A DNA stretch of 33,134 nt, taken from contig JAFSWT010000009.1 of assembly GCA_017444395.1 (NCBI GenBank), forward strand, positions 1-33,134, given 5' to 3'. Numbering within the stretch: the stretch's first letter is position 1; each line of letters begins with the position of its first letter. A program made the position numbers and the translations under genes. The DNA comes from Schwartzia sp. (in: firmicutes). Lineage in GTDB: Bacteria > Bacillota > Negativicutes > Selenomonadales > Selenomonadaceae. Below, one piece after another: positions 24,472 through 30,918 of the stretch. The notes beneath the pieces were generated by a model. That model searched no databases. It was not told where the DNA came from and was given only the letters and a program-made list of their open reading frames with translations.

Positions 24472-24647
24472 TTCGACATCGGCGGAAAAAATCCTTTTTG
24501 CGATTTTGTTTCTGTCCCGCGCCTGGTGTCCGTCATACCATGAACGGAGTATTTCACCCTTCGCCTCGCCGCTTCTTCCTTTCGGTCCGATTCGGGTTCC
24601 GGCCTGGTCGAAATGGCATGGGGAATGTCCTTTTTTATAATACTCTC

Positions 24648-24676
24648 TTGCTTGTCAGGAGAATCGGTGATAATAT
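24648..24676 (+). promoter_or_regulatory. Promoter of the AbrB/PIN pair
   Basis: TTGCTT (24648-24653), 17-base spacer, TAATAT (24671-24676), about 50 bases before the antitoxin start. Confidence 0.7.
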
Positions 24677-24728
24677 CTTCGGGTAAGGAGTTCTTACTTC
24701 ATTTTTTGCCAGAATGAAAGGAGTCCCT

Positions 24729-24995
24729 ATGAAAGTTGACGTCATAAAGGTTTCCGGCAAGGGACAGATTTCCCTGCCAACCGAAATCCGCCGGTCGCTT
24801 TCCATCGCCGACGGCGACTGCCTGGCGGTCTATGCCACTGACAAGGTGATCGTACTGAGGCCGCTGCATCTGCCGACGAAGAAGCAGTTTTCCCGTTGGC
24901 TGGACGAGGCGCAGGTGTGGGCCCGGGAGGCCGGATACGAGGAAGAGGATATAGCCGGCATCGTGAAATCAGTGAGGAGAAGGAAAAAGCAATGA
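24729..24995 (+). CDS. AbrB/MazE-type antitoxin
   Basis: 88 residues. The N-terminal 45 residues (VDVIKVSGKGQISLPTEIRRSLSIADGDCLAVYATDKVIVLRP) are a swapped-hairpin AbrB/SpoVT DNA-binding domain; GKGQISLPTEIRR is its hallmark. The C-terminal part (QFSRWLDEAQVWAREAGYEEEDIAGIVKSVRRRKKQ) is the helical toxin-binding tail. ATG 24729 follows GAAAGGAG. Its stop overlaps the start of the PIN toxin gene (ATGA), as is usual for type II pairs. It should neutralise the toxin and repress the shared promoter. Confidence 0.93.
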   Translation: MKVDVIKVSGKGQISLPTEIRRSLSIADGDCLAVYATDKVIVLRPLHLPTKKQFSRWLDEAQVWAREAGYEEEDIAGIVKSVRRRKKQ

Positions 24996-25393
24996 AAATC
25001 GTCATGGATACCGGTGTCATTCTGACGGCACTTTTCTTCGGCGGCACCTCCCGGAAGATTGTCGAGGCAGTGGCACAGAAAAAGGTGGCAGCCTATGCCA
25101 CGCGGGAAATCGTGGTGGAATACCGGGCCGCGTTGGCAAAGATGACCGCGAAAAAACCAGGTGACCTCCGCCCGGATCTCCTGTTGCCAATCACCACCCG
25201 GCTGCATATCATCGAGGAAAAACCCAAGCCCCCGTTATGCCGCCATCCCGGCGACGACAGGTTCCTGTCCTGCGCCCTGGACGCCAAAGCGGTCTATATC
25301 GTCACCGGCTTCAAGGACCTGCGGCTCCGGGGCGCGGGAAAAAGCGTCTCCATGATGACCGCCGAAGACCTCGGCCAACGGCTCAGCCTGTGA
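24992..25393 (+). CDS. PIN-domain toxin, second PIN subfamily
   Basis: 133 residues. It starts MKIVMDTGVILTALFFGGTSRKIVEAV, typical of the 'putative toxin-antitoxin PIN family' group (TIGR00305, PF13470 from memory). Further acidic residues are in EIVVEYRAAL and in HPGDDRFLSCALDAKAVYIVTG, where GDDRFL and the following TGFKDL complete the metal site. PIN toxins act as ribonucleases. The start overlaps the antitoxin stop by 4 bases, so translation is coupled. This pair belongs to a different PIN subfamily from the one at 1-291, so the window carries two unrelated PIN systems. Confidence 0.92.
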   Translation: MKIVMDTGVILTALFFGGTSRKIVEAVAQKKVAAYATREIVVEYRAALAKMTAKKPGDLRPDLLLPITTRLHIIEEKPKPPLCRHPGDDRFLSCALDAKAVYIVTGFKDLRLRGAGKSVSMMTAEDLGQRLSL

Positions 25394-25448
25394 GGAAAGC
25401 GCCGGATACGAGGCCCGGAGGCACGAGAAAAATTAATCGGTCTTCATG

Positions 25449-25493
25449 TTGACAAAGATAATCATATGCGATATTATAGGGACAATGATTTTC
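25449..25493 (+). promoter_or_regulatory. Consensus promoter with Fur-box-like half sites
   Basis: Perfect TTGACA (25449-25454), 17-base spacer, TATTAT (25472-25477). The spacer holds GATAATCAT (25457-25465), and ATGATTTTC (the inverted form of GAAAATCAT) lies at 25485-25493. Both match half sites of the ferric-uptake-regulator consensus GATAATGAT. A Fur-type repressor sitting here would block the operon when iron is plentiful; the regulator itself is not in the window. Confidence 0.7.
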
Positions 25494-25524
25494 AAATTCA
25501 CAGTCTACACAGGAGGAATGACGT

Positions 25525-25731
25525 ATGTTTTCTAAGAGCGATTTCTGGATTGGTCTGGCTGTCGGCGCGATTGCCGGTGTTTTCGGCTACCGCTTCATGC
25601 AGGAGCGCGAGCAGCAGATGATGGCGCTTTCCGGCGGCGCGCCGACGGGGCAGGTGCCGCTGGCTGAGCTGGAGCGGCAGAAAGAGGAGCTGGAAGACCT
25701 GATCGCGGCGCAGAAGGCCCAGGCGAAATAA
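25525..25731 (+). CDS. Small membrane protein, first gene of the P-type ATPase operon
   Basis: 68 residues: an N-terminal membrane span (DFWIGLAVGAIAGVFGYRFM) with glycine-rich packing, a Met/Gln-rich linker and a charged coiled-coil-like tail (VPLAELERQKEELEDLIAAQKAQAK). ATG 25525 follows AGGAGGAAT. It is first behind the Fur-like promoter and is separated from the next gene by a hairpin terminator, so it is probably made in excess over the downstream proteins. Function unknown; small hydrophobic-helix proteins also head ferrosome loci, which is the comparison I suggest. Confidence 0.85.
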   Translation: MFSKSDFWIGLAVGAIAGVFGYRFMQEREQQMMALSGGAPTGQVPLAELERQKEELEDLIAAQKAQAK

Positions 25732-25740
25732 TTGGTAAGG

Positions 25741-25777
25741 AAAGGAGACTGCCTGACGAAAGACAGTCTCCTTTTTT
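25741..25777 (+). terminator. Intercistronic terminator in the ATPase operon
   Basis: Stem AAAGGAGACTG (25741-25751) with CAGTCTCCTTT (25764-25774), then T-run. It lies between the small membrane protein and the rest of the operon, so only part of the transcripts should read through. Confidence 0.85.
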
Positions 25778-25791
25778 GTGAGGCGAGAAGA

Positions 25792-26265
25792 ATGAAGCAG
25801 TTATCGTTGGGGCTGCCGCTTCTGGGGGCAGCGGCGGGCACACTCCTGTCGCTGGCACTGCCGTCAAAGAAGGGGCATATCGCCTGCGGTCTGGCGTGGG
25901 CGGGTCTGTCGGCGCTCCACGTCTGGCAGTACCGGAAAAAGCTCGCCCGGGATTTAAGCAGAAACGGCAGGGGGCTGTCTTTGATGGGATTTCCGCAATC
26001 GAGTCTTGAGTTTTTCCTCCGCTCGGTGGAGGTTGCCTCGTATATTCCGGGACGGGCGCGGATCTATGCCCGTGCTCTGGTAGGAAATCCCGGGCTGGCC
26101 GAGCAGGTCAGGCGGGAGATTGCCGCCGCGCCGGGCATGAAGAGCGTCCGCACGAATCTGACGACCGGCTCCCTGCTGCTGGAGTACGACCCGGCCACGC
26201 TCCGTCAGGACCCGCAGTTGGCGCGCCTGGAAGAATACATCCGTACCCATGTGAAGAAGAAATGA
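25792..26265 (+). CDS. HMA_2-like protein with N-terminal membrane segment
   Basis: 157 residues. A hydrophobic N-terminal region (about 1-45, LGLPLLGAAAGTLLSLALP and ACGLAWAGLSALHVWQYRKK) forms one or two membrane spans. It is followed by a ferredoxin-like domain of the HMA_2 kind: VASYIPGRARIYARALVGNPGLAEQV, then GMKSVRTNLTTGSLLLEYDP. The CxxC metal-binding pair of true HMA domains is absent. The same block recurs in the next protein (IPGR-x-R-x-YA-x-AL-x-GN and GSLL-x-x-Y), so the two are paralogues. ATG 25792 lies after a GAGGCGAGAAG stretch. It is likely to work with the P-type ATPase three genes on; no function is proven. Confidence 0.85.
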   Translation: MKQLSLGLPLLGAAAGTLLSLALPSKKGHIACGLAWAGLSALHVWQYRKKLARDLSRNGRGLSLMGFPQSSLEFFLRSVEVASYIPGRARIYARALVGNPGLAEQVRREIAAAPGMKSVRTNLTTGSLLLEYDPATLRQDPQLARLEEYIRTHVKKK

Positions 26266-26281
26266 GAAGGAAGGGAAATCT

Positions 26282-26863
26282 ATGTCATATATGTCCGGCG
26301 TCATGATGGGGCTGGCCTTTGGCAAGGGGCTTCGTCATATCCTGTCCGGCCGGCCGGCACCGAAGGCTACACTGCCGGCATTCGCACTGGCCCGGGCGAT
26401 TCCGGGACGGCGTCGCTACTACGCGAAGGCGCTGCTGGGGAACGAAGCTCTGGCGGCAGCGGTGGAAAAGGCGTTGACGCGTCTCGACTTCGTGGACGAG
26501 GCGCGGGCGAATCCCGTCTCGGGCAGTCTGCTCATCGTTTACCACGTCGATGAGGCGGCGATGAACGCGGTGGCGGATCGTCTTGCCAACCGCGTTTTCA
26601 CCGTCCCCATGGATGGGCCGACGCCGATGGAAGAGGCCGCCGAGGGGCTGGCTGCCATCGGTCGCCATCTGCATGGGACGTTTTGCGCCATCAGCCGCCA
26701 CCTGAAGATGGTGACGGCCGGCCTGCTGGATTTGCCGTCGCTGCTGTCGATTGTCTTCGCCGTGCGCGGCATCCGGAAAATCCTGCTGGCGAAACAGCTC
26801 CCGTCGGGGCCGCAGCTCCTCTGGTGGGCCTTTTCTCTTTTGAGAGGATGGCGGATCGCATGA
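26282..26863 (+). CDS. HMA_2-like protein with C-terminal hydrophobic helices
   Basis: 193 residues. After a short N-terminus comes the HMA_2-like block ALARAIPGRRRYYAKALLGNEALAAAV ... DEARANPVSGSLLIVYHVDE, paralogous to the preceding protein and likewise without CxxC. The C-terminal third (AAIGRHLHGTFCAISRHLKMVTAGLLDLPSLLSIVFAVRGIRKILL...) is amphipathic to hydrophobic, with a possible membrane segment. ATG 26282 follows GAAGGGAAA. Its stop overlaps the start of the P-type ATPase gene (ATGA), indicating coupled translation and probably a physical partnership. Confidence 0.85.
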   Translation: MSYMSGVMMGLAFGKGLRHILSGRPAPKATLPAFALARAIPGRRRYYAKALLGNEALAAAVEKALTRLDFVDEARANPVSGSLLIVYHVDEAAMNAVADRLANRVFTVPMDGPTPMEEAAEGLAAIGRHLHGTFCAISRHLKMVTAGLLDLPSLLSIVFAVRGIRKILLAKQLPSGPQLLWWAFSLLRGWRIA

Positions 26864-28950
26864 ACATTCGCCTGGTAAAAGCGCCGCTGGCCTCGGTACT
26901 GTCCCATGAAGCGCGGCTTCTGGCCGGTGTGCGCCTTCGCGCCGTACGGGGCGTCGTCTCCGTAGCGGCAGACGGGAACTGCCTGCGGGTATGGCATACC
27001 GGAGCACAGCTCGCGCCGGCGGCGCAACGGTTGATTCGGCGCATCCAATCGGAGGCGGCGGCCCGGGAGGCGGAGCCGACGATGGCGGATTACCGCCGCG
27101 ACGCACTTCTCTCCGTTGGCGTCTTTGCCGCCCTGAAGCTGTTGGAAAAGAACGCCCCCGCCGCTTATGAGGGGCTGCGGTTCGTCCGCAGCTTGCTGGT
27201 GCTCGGCATGGCCCGCAATCTGTTTGACAGTGGCTACGGCGGCTTTTTCCGCGACCGCCGGCCGAACGCGGACACCCTGACGGCGACGGCAGTGGCCGCG
27301 TCGGTTCTTTCCGGAAGGCCGGAGTCGAGCCTGACGCTCCTGACGCTGTCCAACGTGGCGGAAATGCTGACCAGCTACGCAGCGGAGCGGGCCCGTCGCC
27401 AGATTTCCGGTCTTTTGAACCTCAACCAACGGTATGTCTGGCGCATCGAAGGCGGCGTGGAGCGGAAGGTTCCGGTGGAAGCGCTGCAGGCGGGGGACAC
27501 AATCGCTGCCCACGCCGGCGAGATGATCTGCATTGACGGCCGGGTGCTGGCCGGCTCTGCCGCCGTGAACCAGTCCTCTATCACCGGCGAGTCAAACCCG
27601 GCACTGAAACAGGAAAAATCCCGGGTTTACGCGGGCAGCGTCGTCGAGGCGGGAGAGCTGGTCATTCTCGTGGAAAAGGTCGGGCAGGACACCTCTCTGG
27701 CCCACATCGTCCATCTTGTGGAGGAAGCCCAATCGCAGCGCGCCCCGGTACAGAACTTCGCCGACCAGATGGCGAATCTCCTGGTGCCGGTCTCGCTCAT
27801 CGGCGCCGCCGTCGTGTACGGCGCGACCCGGGACTGGCAGCGCGTACTGAACCTCCTGTTCATCGACTTTTCCTGCGGCCTGAAGCTCTCGACGGCCACA
27901 GCGATCTCCGCCGCCATTGCCTCGGCCGCGAAGAAGGGCATTCTCGTCAAGGGCGGTAACTACATCGAGGCGCTGGCGGAGGCGGACACCGTTGTCCTGG
28001 ACAAGACGGGCACGCTGACCATCGGCGTGCCGCAGATTTCCTATATCCGCACGGCGGAGGACGTCACCGAGAAGGAAACGGTCCTCCTGGCGGCGTCGGC
28101 GGAAATGCACTCCGTCCACCCGCTGGCAGTGGCCATCCAGAAATACGTCCGGCAAAAGGCCTGGGAAGTGCCGCAGCATAAGAGCTCCGCCACCGTGGTG
28201 GCCCGGGGCATGAAAGCCGTCGTGCCCGACTTTGAGGAATACAAGGGCGGCGCGGTGCTGGTAGGCAGCCGGAAGTTCATGGAGGAATCGAAGGTCAAGG
28301 GGCTCGATCGCATCGCCATAGAGGAAACGGCCCCCAACTGCATCTATGTGGCACGGGACAAGAAGCTCCTGGGCGTCATCGGCATCAACGACCCGATTCG
28401 CCCGAAGATGAAGAAGACGCTGAACCAGATGCGGCGTTGCGGCATCGACGAAATCGTCATGCTGACCGGCGACTCAAAGGAAGTCGCGGCGCAGGTGGCG
28501 CGGGACATGGACATCGACGCCTTCTACGCCGAGGTGCTGCCGGAGGAGAAAGCGGACTACGTCCGAAAGCTCAAGGAACGCGGCTGCATCATGATGGTCG
28601 GCGACGGCATCAACGACGCCCCGGCTTTGGCCTTTGCCAATGTCGGCGTCAGCCTCGGCGGGCAACAGACGGACATCGCCGCCGAATCCGGCGCGGTGAC
28701 GATCCGCTCCGAAGACCCGGAAGGGCTGATGACCGCCCTTACCATCGGGCGGCGCACCATGCGGCTGATACGGCAGAACTTCATGGCAACCATCGCCGTG
28801 AACTCCGCCGCCATGCTGCTCGGCGCCATTGGGAAAATCAACCCGCTCTGGGCCGCCATCATCCACAACACCGCGACCCTGGCGGTAGTGCTGAACAGCG
28901 CCCGCATCCTCGGCAGCGACAAGCGAAGGTTCCTGCCCCCCGGCAACTGA
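26860..28950 (+). CDS. P1B-type heavy-metal ATPase with Ser-Cys-Gly motif (FezB-like candidate)
   Basis: 696 residues. The N-terminal region (1-70) has no CxxC. The catalytic core is complete: TGES (242-245), phosphorylation site D381 in DKTGTLT, SVHPLA (about 418-423), TGDS and GDGINDAP (581-588). In the membrane segment before D381, where P1B pumps have Cys-Pro-Cys, this one reads DFSCGLKLSTATA (S338, C339, G340). The near-invariant proline is absent, which recalls the SCA-type P1B-6 group. The last span ends IIHNTATLAVVLNSARIL. The gene is translationally coupled to the HMA_2 gene before it; ATG 26848 is an alternative start. With the Fur-like promoter this suggests an iron-moving pump, possibly for an internal iron store. 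The substrate is inference. Confidence 0.92.
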   Translation: MNIRLVKAPLASVLSHEARLLAGVRLRAVRGVVSVAADGNCLRVWHTGAQLAPAAQRLIRRIQSEAAAREAEPTMADYRRDALLSVGVFAALKLLEKNAPAAYEGLRFVRSLLVLGMARNLFDSGYGGFFRDRRPNADTLTATAVAASVLSGRPESSLTLLTLSNVAEMLTSYAAERARRQISGLLNLNQRYVWRIEGGVERKVPVEALQAGDTIAAHAGEMICIDGRVLAGSAAVNQSSITGESNPALKQEKSRVYAGSVVEAGELVILVEKVGQDTSLAHIVHLVEEAQSQRAPVQNFADQMANLLVPVSLIGAAVVYGATRDWQRVLNLLFIDFSCGLKLSTATAISAAIASAAKKGILVKGGNYIEALAEADTVVLDKTGTLTIGVPQISYIRTAEDVTEKETVLLAASAEMHSVHPLAVAIQKYVRQKAWEVPQHKSSATVVARGMKAVVPDFEEYKGGAVLVGSRKFMEESKVKGLDRIAIEETAPNCIYVARDKKLLGVIGINDPIRPKMKKTLNQMRRCGIDEIVMLTGDSKEVAAQVARDMDIDAFYAEVLPEEKADYVRKLKERGCIMMVGDGINDAPALAFANVGVSLGGQQTDIAAESGAVTIRSEDPEGLMTALTIGRRTMRLIRQNFMATIAVNSAAMLLGAIGKINPLWAAIIHNTATLAVVLNSARILGSDKRRFLPPGN

Positions 28951-28966
28951 TACCAATCTCATTTAC

Positions 28967-29008
28967 CCAGCGCTCGTTAGCATCGGATAAAAAAGCATTT
29001 CTAACAGC
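28967..29008. repeat. Imperfect hairpin similar to one at the right edge
   Basis: CAGCGCTCGTTAGC and CTAACAGCGAGTCG form an imperfect inverted repeat around a TCGGATAAAAAAGCATTT loop. The words CGCTGTTAG and CTAACAGCG recur in the hairpin at 32931-32965, suggesting a small dispersed repeat. Confidence 0.5.
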
Positions 29009-29030
29009 GAGTCGTAGGATTCCCGGCCAC

Positions 29031-29078
29031 AAGAATCCCCCGCAGCCTGTCTGTGACACGGCTCCGGGGGATTCTTTC
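29031..29078 (+). terminator. Terminator after the P-type ATPase operon
   Basis: Stem AAGAATCCCCCG-C-AGCC (29031-29047) with GGCT-C-CGGGGGATTCTT (29060-29076). Confidence 0.85.
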
Positions 29079-29456
29079 GCCTGTCGGGGCTTTTCGACAC
29101 AAATGGCATCCCCAACGCTGATTTCCTTCCCGGCGCCGACCATTCAAAATTTTTTTTACGAAGCAAAAAAAAATCTGTCCCCGGAGGCAAGACCGTGGCA
29201 AATCGCCCGGACACAACCGGTTGATAATAGTTGGAGAAGAAAACACAATATCTGTTATCCGTGGTGGTTTCTCCGCCGCCTTCCGGGCTGTCACAGCGGG
29301 AAAAAAGCAGAAAAAAGGCGAGTCATTTATGAATATTTCATGAAAAAATTCTTTACTTGCCGCCGCGTTTTATATTATAATAGCTACAAAGCGGGATTCT
29401 CCGTCCCGACGCTATCATTTTCATCGTTTCCATTCGATTCATAAAGGAGGGAACGC
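29079..29456 (+). promoter_or_regulatory. Gap and promoter region of the anion transporter
   Basis: No gene is seen in this stretch. It holds an A/T hairpin (ATTTTTTTT, ACGAAGC, AAAAAAAAAT near 29150-29172), a 13-base palindrome ATGAA-TAT-TTCAT (29329-29341) and a promoter: TTTACT (29352-29357), 18-base spacer, TATAAT (29376-29381). The palindrome ends 10 bases before the -35 and is a candidate activator or repressor site. The leader to the transporter start is about 120 bases. Confidence 0.6.
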
Positions 29457-29516
29457 GTGGCAATCAAAGACAGGGTTTCATCGAATCCACGAAAAAGGAG
29501 GATGTATCGTGTTTAA
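29457..29516 (+). CDS. 19-residue basic leader peptide overlapping the transporter start
   Basis: GTG 29457 has an excellent site, AAAGGAGGG, 5-6 bases upstream, and opens a 19-codon frame reading MAIKDRVSSNPRKRRMYRV, ending in TAA. The frame carries the transporter's own ribosome binding site (AAAAAGGAGGATG) inside it and overlaps the transporter start by 8 bases. Ribosomes finishing the peptide would restart on the transporter, a common form of translational coupling. The peptide is strongly basic, with an Arg/Lys cluster near its end. No similarity is known to me, so it may act only as a coupling device. Confidence 0.5.
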   Translation: MAIKDRVSSNPRKRRMYRV

Positions 29517-30918
29517 GAGCAATTTCCAAAAGGGCCTGTTCACCGTCATCGTCGGTGTCGCGCTCTGGTTCTTCCCCGTCCCGGCGGGGCTGAAGCCTGC
29601 CGCCTGGCACATGTTCGCGATCTTCGTCGCCACCATCATCGGCTTCATCCTGCACCCGATCCCCATCGGCGGCGTGGCTCTCATCGCCGTCGGCCTTACC
29701 GGATTCTTGAAGGTCCTGAAGCCGGGCGAAGCGTTGTCGGGCTTTGGCAACGCTACCATCTGGCTCATCGTCGGCGCTTACATGTTCGCCAAAGGCTTCA
29801 TCAAGACCGGCCTCGGGCGACGTATCGCCTATGTCATCATGTCAAAGATCGCCACGAGTTCGCTGAAATTGGCCTACTCCATGACCATCACCGACTTCAT
29901 CGTCTCGCCGGCCACGCCGTCCAACACGGCCCGCGGCGGCGGCATCCTGTATCCGATCGTGCGCTCGCTCTGCACCGCCTTTGAGTCGGAGCCGGACGAG
30001 AAGACCCGCAAGAAGATCGGCAACTTCCTCATGCTGTCCACTTTCGAGTGCAACTGCGTCACCTCGTCGATGTTCCTGACGTCGGTGGCCCCGAACCTCC
30101 TGGTCGCCAAGCTGGCGAAGGACGTGACCGGCCTCGACATTTCCTGGGGCACCTACGCGCTGGCCTGCATCGTGCCGGGCATCATCGCCCTGGCTATCAC
30201 CCCGTACCTCGTCTATAAGCTGGCGCCCCCCGAACTGAAGGCAACGCCGGAAGCGCCGCAGATCGCCAAGGAAGAGCTCCAGAAGATGGGCCCGATGTCC
30301 CGCGACGAATCGGTCGTTCTCCAGGCCTTCATCGCGGCCCTCGCCATGTGGGCCACGACCTCCTTCACCGGCTTCAACGCCACCATGATCGCCCTCGTCT
30401 GCATCGGCTACATGCTGGTGCGCGGCGCCCTTGTCTGGGAAGACATCATCACCGAGAAAGGCGCCTGGGACACCCTGGTCTGGATGGGCGGTCTCATGAG
30501 CCTGGCCACCGGCCTGTCGAAGCTCAAGTTCATCGAATGGATGGCGGGCGGCATTTCCGGCAGCCTCAAGGGCATCGACCCGATGACGACCCTCGTCATC
30601 CTGGCGCTCATCAACATGTACGTACACTACGCTTTCGCGTCGCTGTCAGCCCACGTCAGCGCGGTCTATGCCGCGTTCCTGGCAGTGGCGGTAGCGGCCG
30701 GCGCACCGCCGATGCTCTCGGCCATCGTGCTGGGCTGCGAAACCGGTATCATGGGTTGCCTGACGCACTACGCGACGGGCCCCTCGCCGATCTTCTTCGG
30801 CTCGGGCTACATCACCCAGCCGGAATGGTGGAAAGTCGGCTTCATCTGCTCGATCCTCTTCATGCTCTGCTTCCTGGGTATTGGCCCGGTATGGTGGAAG
30901 GTCATCGGGCTCTGGTAA
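29509..30918 (+). CDS. DASS-family anion transporter (CitT/TtdT-like)
   Basis: 469 residues with about 12 membrane spans. It belongs to the divalent anion:Na+ symporter family, the branch of the citrate/succinate and tartrate/succinate exchangers. Typical blocks are the first substrate loop SPATPSNTARGGGILYPI, WMGGLMSLATGLSKL, and the second loop LTHYATGPSPIFFGSGYI in the CitT/TtdT form. It should import a di- or tricarboxylate such as citrate, malate or tartrate, perhaps in exchange for succinate, across the inner membrane; the exact substrate cannot be read from sequence. GTG 29509 follows AAAAAGGAGG. No citrate lyase or dehydratase genes are adjacent, and a strong terminator follows. Confidence 0.93.
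   Translation: MFKSNFQKGLFTVIVGVALWFFPVPAGLKPAAWHMFAIFVATIIGFILHPIPIGGVALIAVGLTGFLKVLKPGEALSGFGNATIWLIVGAYMFAKGFIKTGLGRRIAYVIMSKIATSSLKLAYSMTITDFIVSPATPSNTARGGGILYPIVRSLCTAFESEPDEKTRKKIGNFLMLSTFECNCVTSSMFLTSVAPNLLVAKLAKDVTGLDISWGTYALACIVPGIIALAITPYLVYKLAPPELKATPEAPQIAKEELQKMGPMSRDESVVLQAFIAALAMWATTSFTGFNATMIALVCIGYMLVRGALVWEDIITEKGAWDTLVWMGGLMSLATGLSKLKFIEWMAGGISGSLKGIDPMTTLVILALINMYVHYAFASLSAHVSAVYAAFLAVAVAAGAPPMLSAIVLGCETGIMGCLTHYATGPSPIFFGSGYITQPEWWKVGFICSILFMLCFLGIGPVWWKVIGLW

Follow-up and report, generated by a model that had tools for sequence, protein, structure and literature searches.

A conserved P1B-6 ATPase locus with HMA_2 proteins as a candidate ferrosome-type iron-storage system in Schwartzia sp.

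The 33,134-nucleotide stretch of Schwartzia sp. analysed here (assembly GCA_017444395.1, contig JAFSWT010000009.1, positions 1 to 33,134), referred to below as the window, carries at positions 25449 to 28950 a promoter and four forward-strand genes that may form a ferrosome-type iron-storage locus. The genes encode a small membrane protein, P1 (25525..25731, 68 residues), two proteins with HMA_2 domains, P2 (25792..26265, 157 residues) and P3 (26282..26863, 193 residues), and a P1B-type ATPase (26860..28950, 696 residues). The promoter and all four genes lie where an initial annotation of the sequence had placed them, except that the start of P2 is corrected to the ATG at 25792. The P3 and ATPase genes share four bases (ATGA), which suggests that they are translationally coupled. 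That annotation had described a four-gene operon. Four genes are indeed present but, because a conserved, covarying terminator-like hairpin (25741..25774, forward strand) splits gene 1 from genes 2-4, the arrangement is not that of a plain operon.

The ATPase, which matches the TIGR01525 model with 506 bits, has no CxxC in residues 1-150 and carries Ser-Cys-Gly at residues 338-340 in place of Cys-Pro-Cys, as had been read from the sequence beforehand; the metal-site helix reads FSCGLKLS, and CPC is absent. In the last core membrane helix it has the dipeptide HN (H669-N670). HN in the absence of CPC is the published mark of P1B-6 pumps, which DUF6110 proteins accompany, and CtpC, where HN is combined with CPC, has been called P1B6-like (PMC9374683). 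ATPases that contain or adjoin an HMA_2 domain were sorted into three types: type I with xCG, which includes the present protein, type II with CPC, resembling CtpC, and type III with SCA. The HN motif is found in 78/79 type I and 33/33 type III sequences (111/112 together) and in none of 56 P1B-1, P1B-2 and P1B-4 pumps, and it is not exclusive to P1B-6, being present also in all 14 members of one further CPC group (FCPC). The P1B sequences gathered in a single scan with patterns common to all P1B ATPases are a random sample and are of use as outgroups only. In a maximum-likelihood tree of 63 sequences types I and III form one clade, with 99 bootstrap and 96 SH-aLRT (approximate likelihood-ratio test) support and a value of 94 in a larger quick tree, and the copper, Zn/Cd, P1B-4 and type II (CtpC-type) pumps fall outside it. 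Clustering with Zn/Cd or Mn pumps, the outcome that the initial annotation had set against its own proposal, was therefore not what the tree returned. We take types I and III to be P1B-6 because of the HN motif and the published DUF6110 association, and on these sequence marks the assignment of the ATPase to the P1B-6 family is well supported. The features of the CtpC/PacL platform, CPC with HN and a DUF1490 partner, are both lacking, since the ATPase has SCG and P1 gives no DUF1490 match, and those of the P1B-2 Zn/Cd and P1B-4 pumps (CPC or SPC, and membership of their clades) are lacking likewise.

The metal-site motif varies, since the helix that carries it reads ACP or ACA in two P1B-6-like ATPases from Hyphomicrobiales (L273 and L267). 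In Nostoc sp. LEGE 12450 a cluster of seven HMA_2 matches (G593:C117:4007-13402; L201, L206, L210 and L212-L215) includes a P1B-like ATPase whose metal-site helix, LDFATGIRVSVP, is free of cysteine. Anaerosolibacter sp. (L123) has a P2-type ATPase that begins with an HMA_2 domain; next to it are two P1B ATPases fused to HMA_2, and one of these has CPK for CPC. A 1679-residue P-type ATPase reading frame adjoins a type II HMA_2-fused pump at another locus (L071, 6930-11969).

P1 was expected to be a single-span protein of 68 residues, and it has one hydrophobic span, a glycine-rich transmembrane segment at residues 7-25. Its C-terminus carries the motif LxxxKExLEDxIA, most positions of which are invariant across 23 sequences ranging from Fusobacterium to Bacillota. 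The layout, a small protein with a glycine-rich span, resembles that of the DUF6110 type, but a Pfam search gave no match to DUF6110 or to DUF1490. The hairpin downstream of the P1 gene, which is followed by a T run, was found through a direct search, the automatic terminator scan having missed it. Among the homologous spacers 34/39 fold with a z-score below -2, compensatory changes are seen in 9/12 pairs, and the hairpin is kept between the first and second genes across the family and beyond; its conservation at this position is a new point of this analysis. A promoter search between the hairpin and gene 2 gave no promoter-like site, so that partial termination, which would yield P1 in excess of the pump, is the simplest reading.

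The HMA_2 block previously noticed in P2 and P3 is confirmed by Pfam (PF19991), with E-values of 6e-13 for P2 and 7e-25 for P3. In both proteins the metal loop of the HMA domain is replaced by invariant arginines, with PGRxR in place of CxxC in P2 and RRRY in P3, where the membrane segments are C-terminal to the domain. The structure model of P3 (mean predicted confidence, pLDDT, 86) has an HMA-like fold with a best Z of 8.4, while a fold search with the HMA domain of P2 alone gave mixed folds at Z <=6.6. P2 has in addition a membrane hairpin with the pattern H29-x3-G33-x9-H43, and all three residues are invariant in 25 orthologues; this invariant histidine pair is the second new point of the analysis. 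The H-x3-G-x9-H spacing is that of DUF4405 proteins from the same class, in which DUF4405 genes are common. FezC is a cytochrome of DUF4405-like type whose haem site arises when the protein dimerises (PMC10979944) and, since P2 has the same histidine spacing, P2 may unite FezC with an HMA_2 domain. No separate DUF4405 gene lies beside the operon; two are present elsewhere in the genome.

The locus had been called divergent, which does not hold, as orthologues of the ATPase with 60-89% identity are present in 51/61 sampled genomes of the same family. Within the class, several further families have orthologues with 56-67% identity, and HMA_2 genes adjoin the ATPase orthologues. Two gene orders recur, P1, P2, P3, ATPase and P2, P3, ATPase, (third HMA_2), P1. 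Further afield, more diverged forms of the whole set occur on Priestia plasmids, in Fusobacterium, in Peptostreptococcaceae and in one Bacteroidales genome. In the Priestia megaterium plasmid cluster (e.g. NZ_CP071477.1) two HMA_2 genes, a type I ATPase with 43% identity, a further HMA_2 gene and a small transmembrane protein gene follow one another, so that it differs from the present locus in the third HMA_2 gene and in having the small gene at the end. As both order and orthologues recur in relatives, the locus is a widespread module, not something peculiar to one genome. Genes for FeoB were found in the examined flank of 10/46 type I or III loci against 0/68 other P1B loci (p 6e-5, with rows that share ancestry), and these FeoB-flanked loci span the class of the window, Peptostreptococcaceae, another family of the same phylum, a genome named Ruminococcus and Hyphomicrobiales. 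A search of Hyphomicrobiales returned SCA-type ATPases, some of them adjoining feoAB, and no six-gene fez operon was recognised in that sample, in which none of the genomes was identified as Rhodopseudomonas.

The promoter, of sigma-70 type (TTGACA-17-TATTAT, 25449..25477, forward strand), matches the consensus at 11/12 positions and is the best in the region 24600-29600, in agreement with the initial annotation, which had also pointed to two Fur-box-like sites there. Both sites are present, the first (25450..25464) covering the -35 element and spacer and the second (25480..25494) close to the expected transcription start, and each has 11/14 matches to the 7-1-7 Fur consensus TGATAATNATTATCA. 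At <=3 mismatches this consensus is found at 3 places in the window against 0.42 expected, two of the three at this promoter, and the best 7-1-7 score of the upstream region was equalled in 1/100 shuffles. Upstream of control genes 11/14 matches were attained in 8/101 cases. Among relatives in which P1 comes first, 16/36 have an upstream 7-1-7 site at p <=0.05, and where P1 comes last no such site was found in its own upstream region. A search with the stricter 19-bp Fur box gave zero matches, and classic Fur boxes across the genome itself (<=2 mismatches) amounted to six sites, none at an evident iron gene, against one in the reversed control. The two sites at the promoter and their recurrence in relatives would be compatible with Fur control. 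Directly upstream of the locus (24714-25393) lie genes for an AbrB/MazE-type antitoxin and a PIN-type toxin.

The closest link to a characterised system comes from Peptostreptococcaceae. In 71 genomes of this family a set of seven (4.2-4.8 Mb) was found in which six have one type III ATPase each, beside a DUF6110-type gene wherever the region was read. In G603 the sole type III ATPase of a 4.11-Mb chromosome (G603:C1:711607-713685) adjoins a DUF6110 gene. The fezAB genes of Clostridioides difficile are CD630_05910-05920 (PMC11651100), and the position of the G603 ATPase, 711.6 kb, is close to the one that the gene number of CD630_05920 suggests; G603 is very probably C. difficile and its type III ATPase FezB. 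FezA and FezB of C. difficile are repressed by Fur and are required for ferrosomes (PMC12574912). The present locus shares with C. difficile fezAB a P1B-6 ATPase with HN and without CPC, in the one clade described above, and a small glycine-rich single-span protein encoded next to it; an HMA_2-like part is common to both as well, in the probable C. difficile genome as the N-terminus of the ATPase. It differs in having SCG where the probable C. difficile ATPase has SCA; there the partner is a DUF6110 protein, and no separate HMA_2 genes were seen in the 13-kb region read. The fez-like character proposed in the initial annotation is thus supported as to family, the ATPase standing in a clade with DUF6110-linked SCA ATPases that include the probable C. 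difficile FezB. In R. palustris and in S. putrefaciens the fez operon consists of six genes. These operons and that of D. magneticus resemble the present locus in coding for a P1B-6 ATPase and small membrane proteins; FezC is DUF4405-like, and P2 has its histidine spacing, whereas a separate DUF4405 gene is missing from this locus.

It would seem likely, with a probability of roughly 0.65, that this is a fez-type locus in which a Fur-repressed P1B-6 Fe(II) pump and its helpers serve ferrosome-like iron storage. On the genes and their neighbours iron storage is moderately supported, and the organelle is a proposal from the genes alone. Under iron scarcity a Fur-type repressor would leave the promoter and P1, P2, P3 and the ATPase would be made. 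The ATPase would pump cytosolic Fe(II) across a membrane, most likely into vesicles derived from the inner membrane, which would fill once iron returns. P1, by way of its glycine-rich span, might bring pumps together or act as their scaffold, and the hairpin after gene 1 would stop part of the transcripts to leave P1 in excess. P2 and P3 could dock on the pump through their HMA_2 domains, the arginine-rich loop taking the place of the cysteine metal site, and the membrane hairpin of P2 may bind haem b and alter the redox state of iron, as proposed for FezC.

Several points weigh against this proposal. What the sequence shows are the four genes and their associated elements, the P1B-6 family, the conserved synteny and the conserved hairpin, while the metal, the direction of pumping, the vesicles and granules, the haem, the role of Fur and the dosage of P1 are proposed from it. 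The similarity of P2 to DUF4405 is weak, with an hhalign probability of 34% and a score of 22 against <=16 in 60 shuffles, and P1 matched no Pfam family above the cut-off, DUF6110 included. Reading of part of the window revealed no FeoB gene. The assembly, which is 79% complete, yielded a single FUR-family gene (G000:C143:3010-3342) and no clear gene for Fur itself; the one found adjoins a ZnuA-like gene and its product looks like, and is probably, Zur. The published FezB used for comparison was the probable C. difficile protein only, not those of D. magneticus, R. palustris or S. putrefaciens, and the C. difficile identity of G603 is itself inferred.

The main rival, drawn by analogy with PacL1-CtpC of Mycobacterium tuberculosis and in our judgement unlikely, is that the pump rids the cell of Fe(II), or of some other divalent metal, under overload, with P1 assembling the pumps into efflux patches in the manner of PacL1 with CtpC and no vesicles being formed. 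CtpC is gathered into membrane foci by PacL1, and DUF6110 proteins go together with P1B-6 pumps (PMC9374683). In both systems a small single-span protein with an acidic tail is encoded with an HN-motif P1B ATPase; in its layout of one glycine-rich span and an acidic (L/V/I)E(D/E)xxAE-like tail P1 resembles PacL and DUF6110 proteins, and the neighbouring HMA_2-linked type II group consists of CtpC-like CPC pumps. In contrast to the present ATPase, CtpC has CPC, exports zinc and belongs to a separate branch of the tree, and PacL1 is a DUF1490 protein with a histidine-rich metal motif, of which the C-terminus of P1 has no counterpart. Moreover, because Fur-box-like sites overlie the promoter, expression would be predicted under iron starvation, which is the wrong sense for an exporter. 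That the locus handles Mn, Zn, Ni or Co instead of iron is less probable still: sequence by itself does not reveal the substrate of a P1B pump, among the named NCBI subfamilies under the general model the cadmium one scores best and, given the Zur-like look of the one FUR-family protein found, the boxes might belong to Zur or to another regulator, but the FeoB neighbours occur in several lineages and at none of the control loci, neither a CPC nor an SPC site is present, the ATPase stands apart from the Zn/Cd and P1B-4 pumps, and iron is the metal to which its FezB-type relatives have been linked (PMC12574912).

Ferrosomes, small membrane-enclosed compartments in which some bacteria keep iron, have to our knowledge been shown in few species only. 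A bolder form of the fez-type proposal, possible though doubtful, is that nearly all members of one family have a compact ferrosome system. In it P2 would combine the cytochrome role of FezC with an arginine-loop HMA_2 domain in a single fused protein, and the conserved terminator hairpin would set the excess of P1 over the pump. With this type of locus in most of the sampled relatives of one family, and related forms in several other lineages, many new species would become available for testing, and both the haem-binding HMA_2 fusion and the dosage-setting hairpin that the locus predicts may be tested directly.

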